A stretch of DNA of 64,000 nt, from positions 1,382,613 to 1,446,612 of the forward strand of contig NZ_LT976853.1 in the NCBI RefSeq assembly GCF_900249755.1. The letters run 5' to 3'. The notes below the pieces were generated by a model. It had not been told where the DNA came from, did not search any database, and was given only the letters and a program-made list of their open reading frames with translations. The DNA is from Cupriavidus taiwanensis (GTDB lineage: Bacteria > Pseudomonadota > Gammaproteobacteria > Burkholderiales > Burkholderiaceae). Position numbers and translations under genes: made by a program. Every line of letters begins with the position of its first letter. The first letter of the stretch is position 1. Of this stretch, positions 32,211-34,858 are shown in pieces.

Positions 32211-33290
32211 TCAGTTGCCGCTGCCCGACACCAGCCGGCGCTGGCGCACCGACTCGGCCAGGCCTTCGAGCACCTTGACCGAATCGTCCCAGCCGATGCA
32301 GGCATCGGTCACGGACTGGCCGTAGGTCAGTTCCTCGACCGGCTGGCCCTGCACGTGGTCCTGGCGGCCCGCCACCAGGTGCGATTCGACCATCACGCCG
32401 ATGATGCGCTGGTCGCCGCCGGCGATCTGGCGGCCGATCTCGGCGCACACCGGGATCTGGTTCTCATGCTTCTTGCTGCTGTTGGCGTGCGAGGCGTCGA
32501 TCATCAGGCGCGACGCCAGCCCGGACTTGGCGATGGCATCGCACGCTTCCTGCACGCTGGCGGCGTCGTAGTTGGGCGCCTTGCCGCCGCGCAGGATCAC
32601 GTGGCAGTCCTCGTTGCCCGAGGTCGACACGATCGCCGAATGCCCGCCCTTGGTCACCGACAGGAAATGGTGCGGCTGCGACGCGGCCTTGATCGCGTCG
32701 ACCGCGATCTTGACGTTGCCGTCGGTGCCGTTCTTGAAGCCCACCGGGCACGACAGTCCCGACGCCAGCTCGCGGTGCACCTGCGACTCGGTCGTGCGCG
32801 CGCCGATCGCGCCCCAGCTGACCAGGTCGGCGATGTACTGCGGGCTGATCATGTCGAGGTACTCGGTGCCGGTCGGCACGCCCATTTCGCTGATGGTCAG
32901 CAGCAGCTCGCGCGCGGTGCGCAGGCCGTCGTTGATCTTGAAGCTGCCGTCCATGTGCGGGTCGTTGATCAGCCCCTTCCAGCCCACGGTGGTGCGCGGT
33001 TTTTCGAAGTACACCCGCATCACCACCTCCAGCTCGCCGGCGAAGCGCTCGCGCTGCACCTTGAGCAGCTTGGCGTATTCGAGCGCGGCGCGGGTATCGT
33101 GGATCGAGCACGGGCCGATGATGACGATCAGGCGGTCATCCATGCCGTGCAGGATGCGGTGCATGGCCTGGCGCGCGCCGTAGATCACGTCCGATGCCTG
33201 TTCGGAGCAGCCGAACTCGCGGATCAGGTGCGCGGGCGGCAGCAGCTCCTTGAGTTCGCGAATGCGCAGGTCGTCGGTGTTCTTCAGCAT
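32211..33290 (-). CDS. aroG: 3-deoxy-7-phosphoheptulonate synthase (DAHP synthase, class I)
   Basis: The 359-residue enzyme carries out the first step of the shikimate pathway, condensing phosphoenolpyruvate and erythrose 4-phosphate. Class I features are RLIVIIGPCSIHD near 55, VYFEKPRTTVGWKGLINDP, GARTTESQVHRELASGLS, GFKNGTDGNV, and the metal-site Cys61/His region with DASHANSSKKHENQ. The N-terminal extension LRIRELKELLPPAHL carries feedback-inhibitor binding in E. coli AroF/AroG. Transcription starts behind a Phe/Tyr-rich leader peptide and terminator (33345-33467), so expression appears to be controlled by charged tRNA-Phe/Tyr. Confidence 0.95.
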   Translation of the reverse strand: MLKNTDDLRIRELKELLPPAHLIREFGCSEQASDVIYGARQAMHRILHGMDDRLIVIIGPCSIHDTRAALEYAKLLKVQRERFAGELEVVMRVYFEKPRTTVGWKGLINDPHMDGSFKINDGLRTARELLLTISEMGVPTGTEYLDMISPQYIADLVSWGAIGARTTESQVHRELASGLSCPVGFKNGTDGNVKIAVDAIKAASQPHHFLSVTKGGHSAIVSTSGNEDCHVILRGGKAPNYDAASVQEACDAIAKSGLASRLMIDASHANSSKKHENQIPVCAEIGRQIAGGDQRIIGVMVESHLVAGRQDHVQGQPVEELTYGQSVTDACIGWDDSVKVLEGLAESVRQRRLVSGSGN

Positions 33291-33344
33291 GATGGCTCCA
33301 GGGTTCTTGTGAGGTCGTGAGTGTGTGGGGAAAACAAACAGGTA

Positions 33345-33373
33345 TAAAAAAACCGCCAGGGTCGCTGGCGGTC
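33345..33373 (-). terminator. aroG attenuator terminator
   Basis: On the minus strand ACCGCCAG, loop CGACC, and CTGGCGGT are followed by a run of T. The stem occupies 33352-33372 and the T run corresponds to 33346-33352. It lies between the leader peptide and the aroG start (about 55 bases before the ATG). Its 5' arm CCGCCAGCG (33363-33371) can instead pair over 9 bases with CGCTGGCGG (33416-33424) inside the leader ORF, giving an antiterminator. Confidence 0.88.
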
Positions 33374-33395
33374 TTTTTTGTATTCGGGGCGCTGC

Positions 33396-33467
33396 TTACA
33401 GCCGTCCCTCCCTATCCGCCAGCGGTGTGAGATCGCTAAAAAAGTAAAAGTAAAACTTAGCGGACAT
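33396..33467 (-). CDS. aroG leader peptide (Phe/Tyr attenuator)
   Basis: A 23-codon frame starts MSAKFYFYFF and ends ...ADREGRL before TAA. Codons 5-10 read Phe-Tyr-Phe-Tyr-Phe-Phe: four Phe and two Tyr codons in a row, just ahead of the antiterminator segment at codons 15-18. Stalling at these codons when charged tRNA is short would leave CGCTGGCGG free and open the aroG transcript; full translation to the stop would mask it and allow termination. The ribosome site is weak (no clear AGGAG), the main doubt. Confidence 0.85.
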   Translation of the reverse strand: MSAKFYFYFFSDLTPLADREGRL

Positions 33468-33802
33468 GGCGGGAAAGGGCGTTGGCTTGGGTCAGCTTGA
33501 AACGATTTTCTTCGCGGGCGCCGGATTTATGCTGCACTGCGTGGCAGAAAGGCAGGAAATTGCGCGCCGCTTGGTTAATTTTCGTTGCGCATCGGCTGCT
33601 TGCCGCGCGACGAAGCATCTTTATAGCGCCTTTTATCAGGGTTGGCAAGTGTCGTCGTCGCCATGCCGTGCCCTGGAACATTGGCTCTCCTCGCTTTCCC
33701 GCGCCGCCCGGGAAGCCGGGTGCCGCTGTCGCTTCCAGCTTTGCGCTGCTTATGCGGCGCCTATATTGGAAGCGGGGAGCAGTGCGCACGGGGAGGTGCA
33801 TC
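33468..33802. other. intergenic region between aroG leader and methyltransferase gene
   Basis: No convincing gene is seen. The region must hold the minus-strand promoter for the aroG leader (no clear -35/-10 found; CATAAA near 33528 is the best -10-like box) and the plus-strand promoter of the methyltransferase gene. Open frames on both strands here have no motif support. Confidence 0.5.
33600..33627 (+). promoter_or_regulatory. candidate sigma70 promoter
   Basis: TTGCCG (33600-33605), 16 bases, then TATAGC (33622-33627), set in a locally AT-richer stretch, about 175 bases before the methyltransferase ATG. It matches four of six bases at each box. Confidence 0.35.
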
Positions 33803-34858
33803 ATGAGCGTCGATGAAGCGAGGCTGAATGCCTTTATGGAAAAATTCGTCGGCGATATCGGCGCGGTGATGCATGCCGCGACCGTGGTCGTCGGCGATGA
33901 ACTCGGGCTGTACAAGGCGCTGGCGGAAAAACCGATGACCGTCGCCGTGCTGGCGGCCAAGACCCATACCGACGAGCGCTACCTGCGCGAATGGCTGTCG
34001 GCGCAGGCGGCCAGCGGCTACGTCGACTATGACGCGGATTCCGCGCAGTTCAGCCTGAACGAGGAACAGGCCTATGCGCTGGCGCAGGAAGGCAGCCCGG
34101 CCTTTATCCCGGGCGCGTTCCAGATCGCCGTGGCGCAGTTCCGCGCGATTCCGAAGATGATCGACATCTTCCGCAATGGCCGCGGGCTGGGCTGGCATGA
34201 GCATGATCCCGCGCTGTTCCATGGCACCGAGCGTTTCTTCCGGCCGGGCTATGCGGCGCATTTGGTCTCCGAATGGATTCCCGCGCTCGACGGCATGGCG
34301 GCGCGGCTCACGGCGGGGGCCACGGTCGCCGACGTCGGCTGCGGCCATGGCGCGTCGACCATCATCATGGCGCAGGCGTTTCCGGCGTCGCGCTTTGTCG
34401 GCTTCGACTACCACGAGCCTTCGGTGCGCCATGCCGCCGAGGCCGCGCGCCGCGCCGGCGTGGCCGAGCGCGTGCGCTTCGAGGTGGCCAGCGCCAAGGA
34501 CTATGGCGGCAGGGACTATGACCTGGTGGCGGTGTTCGACTGCCTGCACGACATGGGCGACCCGGTCGGCGCGGCGCGCCACGTGCGCGAGACCCTGCGC
34601 GCCGACGGCGCGTGGATGATCGTCGAGCCCTTTGCCAACGATGCGCTGGAGCAGAACCTGAACCCGGTGGGCCGGGTGTTCTATTCCGCGTCGACCTTCA
34701 TCTGCACGCCGGCGTCGCGCTCGCAGGAAGTGGGCCTGTGCCTGGGCGCGCAGGCGGGCGAGGCGCGCATGCACGCGGTGGCGGAGCAGGCGGGTTTTCG
34801 CAGCTTCCGGCGGGCGGCGCAGACGCCGTTCAATCTGGTGTATGAGGTGCGGCCCTGA
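33803..34858 (+). CDS. class I SAM-dependent methyltransferase
   Basis: The 351-residue protein has an N-terminal winged-helix dimerisation domain (about 1-110; AVLAAKTHTDERYLREWLSAQAA) and a C-terminal Rossmann methyltransferase with motif I VADVGCGHGAS near 174, GFDYHEPSV, and motif III-like VAVFDCLHDMGDP. It resembles the large family related to plant O-methyltransferases and to mammalian METTL27/rRNA-like 'winged helix-SAM' proteins; the substrate is not evident. The start is supported by GGGGAGGTG 6 bases upstream. The gene stands alone and ends at a REP-like element. Confidence 0.82.
   Translation: MSVDEARLNAFMEKFVGDIGAVMHAATVVVGDELGLYKALAEKPMTVAVLAAKTHTDERYLREWLSAQAASGYVDYDADSAQFSLNEEQAYALAQEGSPAFIPGAFQIAVAQFRAIPKMIDIFRNGRGLGWHEHDPALFHGTERFFRPGYAAHLVSEWIPALDGMAARLTAGATVADVGCGHGASTIIMAQAFPASRFVGFDYHEPSVRHAAEAARRAGVAERVRFEVASAKDYGGRDYDLVAVFDCLHDMGDPVGAARHVRETLRADGAWMIVEPFANDALEQNLNPVGRVFYSASTFICTPASRSQEVGLCLGAQAGEARMHAVAEQAGFRSFRRAAQTPFNLVYEVRP

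Follow-up and report, generated by a model that had tools for sequence, protein, structure and literature searches.

What controls the entry gate of aromatic biosynthesis in Cupriavidus taiwanensis? DAHP synthase forms this gate, and the DAHP synthase genes of Escherichia coli are known for repression by TyrR and TrpR. In the window, the whole 64,000-nucleotide stretch of C. taiwanensis DNA analyzed here, the gene aroG for 3-deoxy-7-phosphoheptulonate (DAHP) synthase (32211..33290, minus strand) is preceded by a short reading frame rich in phenylalanine and tyrosine, which an earlier note had read as the leader of a ribosome-stalling attenuator. We consider it very probable that the element is a ribosome-mediated transcription attenuator of aroG, so that the gate is apparently controlled by translation of a Phe/Tyr leader. 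The promoter, the stalling, the read-through, and the relevant amino acids are what we infer.

The identity of the regulated gene is clear. AroG matches the NCBIfam AroG equivalog NF006723 with 590.8 bits (cut-off 568) and is 98% identical to AroG of Cupriavidus lacunae (L002). A genome search reveals this one AroG only and no type II DAHP synthase, and the second DAHP_synth_1 match of the genome was rejected as a DAHP synthase, being KDO-8-phosphate synthase. Thus, the sole DAHP synthase gene found stands behind the leader element. Searches with the HTH_50 and TyrR models recognize no TyrR in this genome: the single HTH_50 (TyrR-type) match was discarded as an NtrC-type response regulator, which reaches 213.9 bits with the TyrR model (cut-off 576). 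The leader element would gate the one DAHP synthase gene that the search revealed, in a genome with no recognized TyrR.

All parts in front of aroG are encoded on the minus strand. The leader ORF comprises 23 codons and a stop codon (MSAKFYFYFFSDLTPLADREGRL; 33396..33467) and carries the control codons Phe-Tyr-Phe-Tyr-Phe-Phe at positions 5-10 (TTT TAC TTT TAC TTT TTT; 33438..33455), the sole run of at least six F/Y/W residues in all six frames of the window. Within this ORF lies segment 2 (CGCTGGCGG; 33416..33424), the potential antiterminator partner and exact reverse complement of segment 3 (CCGCCAGCG; 33363..33371), which can pair either with segment 2 or, through its first seven bases, with segment 4. 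Segment 3 forms the 5′ arm of the terminator hairpin (33352..33372), which has an 8-pair core stem and a loop of five bases and runs into seven T (33352-33346), the first of which is paired. In the minus-strand fold, this terminator appears as a 14-pair stem that extends into the A and T runs, and the leader as a whole folds better than 200 of 200 shuffled sequences (z -3.7). From the last T (33346) to the aroG ATG (33290), 55 bases intervene, and GGAG (33296..33299) is the likely Shine-Dalgarno sequence of aroG. The earlier note had thus placed the 23-codon ORF and its aromatic run correctly, to the base; the nine-base complementarity is exact, the terminator with its 8-bp stem and T run is borne out by sequence and fold, and the distance to aroG agrees with the count.

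A consensus terminator scan lists the hairpin on the plus strand only. On that strand, too, a T run follows the hairpin, which could terminate both ways; within the window, no evident plus-strand gene reads into it. Rfam covariance models run over 32800-34000 yield no family at its gathering score.

In the proposed mechanism, the transcript would begin 5′ of the leader ATG (in many relatives, at this ATG or only a short distance from it), and a ribosome would translate the leader in close pursuit of RNA polymerase. A shortage of charged tRNA-Phe or tRNA-Tyr would make the ribosome stall in the aromatic run, with segment 2 free just ahead of its leading edge. Segments 2 and 3 would then pair while segment 4 has yet to be transcribed, no terminator would form, and aroG would be transcribed. 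When aromatic amino acids are sufficient, the ribosome would proceed to the stop codon and segment 2 would be covered or cleared, such that 3:4 forms and transcription terminates before aroG.

Are these parts kept among relatives? In the named-relative set, the best 80 of 587 confirmed aroG loci, an aromatic-rich short leader ORF precedes aroG in 78. The genera include Cupriavidus, Ralstonia, Burkholderia, Paraburkholderia, Caballeronia, Trinickia, Pandoraea, Mycetohabitans, Robbsia, Herminiimonas, Massilia, Undibacterium, Bordetella, Achromobacter, and others. The aromatic leader is absent before aroG at the other two of these 80 loci (L077 and L080). A T-rich stretch about 45 bases 5′ of aroG in L080 resembles a decayed Phe/Tyr run. 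An automatic scan detects a terminator in 75 of the 78 leader loci, and the remaining three have one by eye (L047 and L059, with a G-U pair, and L062). The peptides of the named loci fall into three types, namely those of Burkholderiaceae (mostly with a PLAD tail), Oxalobacteraceae (AVE), and Alcaligenaceae (KPLAEEG). The earlier note had named the loss of leader codons and alternative pairing among relatives as the observation that would speak against an attenuator; instead, the parts are kept together in Cupriavidus, Ralstonia, Burkholderia and its relatives, Oxalobacteraceae, Alcaligenaceae, and further families. Frameshifts in or after the aromatic run occur in L043 and L045 (Caballeronia megalochromosomata and Candidatus Burkholderia humilis). 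Both loci have GGCGG and the terminator despite the frameshift; stalling could persist there, or the frameshifts could reflect sequencing errors or decay.

Beyond the named relatives, we followed the element with a covariance model (R1) built from 55 leaders. In the window's genome, R1 detects the aroG leader with E 6.9e-22, and the next match (0.011) is a terminator by eye. Among 399 genomes of the order, 146 have an R1 match at E <= 0.01 and 295 have an AroG at E <= 1e-60. We inspected 89 R1-match loci, comprising the 29 best besides the window's own and 60 chosen further down the list. In 80 of these, aroG lies within the stretch, and all 80 hold a short ORF with at least four F/Y/W in nine codons (at least five in 78 of them); they are spread over 14 families of the order, the window's own included. 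The other nine have no aroG and were rejected as leaders, as they look like plain terminators near other genes. Since two such aroG-less terminators scored E 8.1e-6 and 3.2e-5, R1 matches alone are no proof of a leader. The counter-sample consisted of 60 aroG upstream regions, one of them (L205) of only 261 bases, from genomes whose best R1 match was weaker than 1e-4 or that had none. Here, the leader-terminator combination is absent in 58 of 60; as a background level, six of these 58 hold an ORF with at least four aromatics in nine codons, with no fitting terminator behind it. The two others (L227 and L234) carry an aromatic leader, and R1 thus misses a few.

Outside the order, 274 genomes of the class contain five R1 matches below 0.001. 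Two of them are real and belong to family f63 (L241, MNAARASFYFWYYFPKPLAEEG...; L242, with a GTG start), and the matches at L245-L247 were rejected as leaders, having no aroG. In a quick tree of 122 AroGs, 82 with a leader and 40 without (the leaderless set being hand-chosen), the f63 AroGs fall into a group of 17 (SH-aLRT 99) that otherwise contains f4 and four f20 AroGs. Moreover, the tail of the f63 leaders is Alcaligenaceae-like and matches f4 leaders. Both features together suggest that gene and leader moved as one, in what looks like a joint transfer of aroG and its attenuator into another order of the class. On the same tree, the leader requires at least 11 gains or losses (five forced by starred branches) versus 33.9 for shuffled labels; its distribution is clustered, with repeated losses or gains.

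For the analyses below, the window, 75 named loci, and the 80 R1-match loci were combined into a set of 156 leaders. The set omits L047, L059, and L062, whose terminator the first scan missed, the leader-less loci L077 and L080, and the later additions L227, L234, L241, and L242. Leader counts are not independent, as the sequences are related and a few are present twice (L093 equals L022 and L094 equals L056); L105 was taken as the same contig as L062. Folds with a placed ribosome were computed on the 150 distinct sequences, and the neighboring-pair, codon, and swap tests also used 53 hand-picked representatives.

The aromatic run recurs throughout the leader peptides. The 121 distinct peptides have a mean of 6.7 F/Y/W in their best nine codons; phenylalanine occurs in 121 of them, tyrosine in 115, and tryptophan in 54. 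With Phe and Tyr nearly always present and Trp in under half, part of the group may sense all three end products. Besides this run, the peptides share little across families. Codon choice sets the leaders apart from the gene they precede. In Burkholderiaceae, leaders use TTT 207 times and TTC 36 times for phenylalanine, compared to 29 and 342 in their own aroG genes; in Oxalobacteraceae and Alcaligenaceae, the corresponding counts are 69 and 13 in leaders versus 31 and 91 in aroG. Across 39 Burkholderiaceae leaders, CTG GCG does not vary at its third positions, but several Tyr and Phe codons do. Peptide and RNA levels are each under separate constraint, as judged from these sequences.

At the RNA level, the recurrent part is the GGCGG of segment 2. 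It lies between the aromatic run and the terminator in 148 of the 156 leaders (shuffled expectation 12%), and the remaining eight carry related G-rich stretches, e.g., GGTGG or GGCGA. GGCGG is read in frame 2 of the ORF in 129 leaders, in frame 0 in 12, and in frame 1 in seven, with the frameshifted L045 and L043 contributing one each to the last two. Thus, differing residues are written over one RNA motif in all three codon frames. The CCGCC...GGCGG terminator persists among diverged leaders as well. GGCGG starts 8-17 nt past the last aromatic codon in 143 of 148 leaders and ends 0-17 nt ahead of the stop codon in 109 of 148. The usual ribosome footprint extends some 12-15 nt to either side of the decoding site. 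In our model, a ribosome stalled in the run would leave GGCGG free, or almost free if it stands at the last codon, and on reaching the stop codon it would cover or touch GGCGG. When a ribosome with a leading edge of 12 nt is set in the middle of the run, all 150 distinct leaders are predicted to have segment 3 paired upstream, its partner being GGCGG itself in 141 of 142. Sequences and folds hence point to a mutually exclusive 2:3 antiterminator that a stalled ribosome would leave free.

Covariation was examined on alignment A1 (55 sequences). The extended terminator stem displays double changes in 4 of 12 pairs (16 cells), compared to 1.4 pairs and 2.6 cells in shuffles. The 2:3 helix, in contrast, has no excess of double changes on A1 (1 cell versus 0.9 in shuffles), and its core is nearly invariant. 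The conservation across relatives that the earlier note had proposed to check holds for the aromatic codons; the nine-base pairing is conserved mostly by invariance. A signal appears at the pair adjoining the 2:3 core, where 52 of the 53 representatives can be scored: U-A occurs in 17, C-G in 17, U-G in four, and non-pairing combinations in 14 (C-A 4, A-A 6, G-A 2, A-G 1, and C-C 1). The association of U/C with A/G has a Fisher value of 1.4e-4, calculated over lineages that are not independent. Further, own 2:3 duplexes of the 53 representatives beat swapped ones, with 19 of 20000 permutations as good (4270 and 1750 for reversed controls). As segment 2 resembles segment 4, this swap signal is indistinguishable from co-change with the whole terminator, and the mechanism predicts the same. 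Support from co-change for 2:3 comes mainly from the one adjoining pair, the core being invariant.

Two further structures were noted. Around segment 2, RNAalifold places a small stem between A1 columns 54-56 and 75-77 (about 33432-33430 and 33411-33409 in the window), in which 7-8 of 55 sequences differ on both sides, probably through a single evolutionary event in the Oxalobacteraceae-like set. In the Oxalobacteraceae-like leaders L063, L064, and L069, the bases just past the leader stop look complementary to codons 3-6 by eye, e.g., CTGCGCTT with AAGCGCAG in L063, and an extra lineage-specific helix is possible in these three.

In which respect does the element depart from the textbook design? 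The earlier note had credited it with every part of a classical attenuator, and all the parts listed there are present and conserved, but the protector helix formed by a segment 1 is unsupported. The window and Burkholderiaceae have the potential for a classical 1:2 helix, which does not appear to be general; its z of -1.65 compares to -1.48 for the reversed control and gives no support beyond base composition, and in Burkholderiaceae this helix has no double change. Own 1:2 duplexes do beat swapped ones over 140 distinct leaders (1/20000), in a run that had no composition control. Without a ribosome, segment 3 is still predicted to pair upstream in 106 of 150 leaders, which implies that the off state must depend on translation or that the untranslated state reads through. 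In the window, folded with 30 bases of 5′ sequence, GGCGG is 66-73% paired with the five bases directly 5′ of the start codon and about 23% paired with codons 2-3. These five bases may hence sequester segment 2 in the window. In L002, which has an identical leader and was folded with 10 bases of its own 5′ sequence, segment 3 keeps its upstream pairing, so the prediction depends on the length of 5′ sequence given. In the complete window transcript, the terminator is favored at equilibrium at every ribosome position modeled. Consequently, read-through needs kinetic trapping of 2:3, formed first and persisting.

Initiation of the leader appears to differ between lineages. A recognizable Shine-Dalgarno sequence precedes 10 of 149 leaders versus 80 of 149 aroG genes, whose starts are approximate, and the leader ORF of the window has none. 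In many families, extended -10 boxes such as TGTGCTAGAGT end 6-8 nt before the leader ATG (L073, L117, L138, L159, and others). We counted TANNNT boxes in 67 distinct upstream sequences, with Burkholderiaceae and the leaders with AVE, AVK, or AVGRR tails set aside. In 47 of 67, the leader start lies 5-13 nt past the end of such a box, compared to 7.2 in shuffles; the distance is 6-8 nt for 41 of the 47, and 34 have a TG before the box, as in TGTGCTAGAGT. The corresponding counts are 0 of 56 in Burkholderiaceae and 2 of 24 in the Oxalobacteraceae-like set. With the box adjoining the leader start, many such leaders would be leaderless mRNAs; the leader of the window would not. A consensus scan for the promoter of the window leader returned none at threshold. 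By eye, after the TATAAA-like boxes of relatives, CATAAAT (33525..33531, minus strand), 57 bases 5′ of the leader ATG, is a weak candidate for its -10 region.

Could the arrangement be explained without attenuation? If the hairpin were an ordinary terminator and the ORF a product of chance, the aroG promoter would lie downstream of the hairpin. The hairpin is good, and the 55 bases from the T run to aroG leave room for a start site; in three loci, however, the GGCGG arm ends just 27-30 bases before the approximate aroG start. Moreover, the next large upstream ORF in the window (a methyltransferase by eye) is on the other strand, and there is no evident gene to terminate. Against chance stands the co-occurrence of leader, GGCGG, and terminator before aroG in 14 families, a combination that 58 of the 60 aroGs lacking a strong R1 match do not have. 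This explanation is highly improbable in our view. That the leader RNA is terminated but acts mainly in trans, with control of aroG being secondary, we judge equally remote. In Sinorhizobium, the leader RNA rnTrpL and its peptide peTrpL are described as trans-acting. Attenuators do release short leader RNAs, and the leader here would, in many lineages, resemble trpL of S. meliloti in being a leaderless mRNA. Yet 80 of the 89 inspected R1 matches are linked to aroG, the peptide is not conserved between families, and a trans role would be an addition that leaves the cis role in place.

A further alternative keeps the stalled ribosome and changes what it senses: the leader could encode a TnaC-like nascent-chain arrest peptide, which would respond to free phenylalanine or tyrosine in the ribosome tunnel and not to uncharged tRNA. 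Such a peptide, if short, conserved, and followed by a terminator, would present a similar picture, and in Burkholderiaceae conservation of the peptide does continue past the aromatic run (PLADREG). The PLAD part, however, encodes the GGCGG segment, which is read elsewhere in another frame as other residues, and in the 39 Burkholderiaceae leaders it is the third positions of CTG GCG that are fixed and those of the Tyr/Phe codons that vary. Across families, the 121 distinct peptides have little in common but the aromatic run. We therefore regard an arrest peptide as very unlikely. The conserved parts, their spacing, and their pairing potential are consistent with the attenuator proposed in the earlier note, in which the levels of charged tRNA-Phe and tRNA-Tyr would set DAHP synthase expression.

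A more comprehensive picture can be drawn tentatively, and we have considerable doubts that it holds in all its parts. The window's element would belong to an ancient betaproteobacterial family of aroG attenuators, which on one or more occasions would have passed, together with the gene, into another order of the class. The family would pool Phe and Tyr, joined by Trp in many lineages, and would be leaderless in most lineages outside Burkholderiaceae and Oxalobacteraceae. It would work with three RNA segments and not four, and an untranslated leader would read through.

For aromatic regulation in these genera, the leader is a concrete and conserved cis element, useful for engineering Cupriavidus, and it is a candidate Rfam family. 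Its occurrences also form a natural series for comparison: the logic stays constant, and the leader codons, the hairpins, and the distance to the promoter vary.

How does the aroG leader relate to known systems? E. coli pheL encodes a Phe-rich leader peptide and forms alternative antiterminator and terminator hairpins. The aroG leader shares a Phe-rich leader and alternative hairpins with pheL-pheA and pheM-pheST. It differs from pheL in its target, in the Tyr and often Trp residues of the run, in the position of segment 2 inside the ORF, and in the mostly missing recognizable Shine-Dalgarno sequence. The Rfam model Phe_leader (RF01859) scores 18.5 bits on the plus strand, below its gathering score of 55. 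Control of E. coli pheA and pheST by attenuation is cited as background in PMC11802643, and, according to PMC8632094, a comparable mechanism has been hypothesized for E. coli aroF. For the trp operon, trpL of the alphaproteobacterium Sinorhizobium meliloti is described as a leaderless attenuator peptide RNA beginning at the ATG (PMC7298713); this resembles our prediction for many relatives and not for the window, and target and class differ.

Leader-peptide attenuation is thus already known as a kind, and a member before aroG in this group seems undescribed: in the open-access literature that we searched, we found no description of an aroG leader in Burkholderiales relatives, a statement that does not extend to print at large. 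The main text of the attenuator survey by Naville and Gautheret contains no aroG, phenylalanine, or Ralstonia (PMC2965389). Related predictions exist before genes of the same pathway. A screen of five genomes, as reported, lists two uORF candidates that contain Phe and Tyr and stand before shikimate-pathway genes (PMC6429828); they are similar to the leaders found here but come from genomes with no betaproteobacterium among the five. In Acholeplasma, the uORFC-13-1 motif before aroF combines a predicted uORF, holding one Phe codon or more, with a terminator (PMC8632094). Like the aroG leader, it precedes a DAHP synthase gene; it differs in that its 24 representatives are described from Acholeplasma and unplaced environmental sequences only and have a ribosome-binding site and further substructure. 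Closest in function is aroR, the leader of the Corynebacterium glutamicum aroF operon; its peptide, described as containing Phe-Tyr-Phe, precedes a gene for DAHP synthase (PMC11802643). The likeness, drawn from this description, is one of type of function only. C. glutamicum belongs to a different phylum (Actinobacteria); in both systems, a leader peptide with Phe and Tyr stands before the gene for DAHP synthase.
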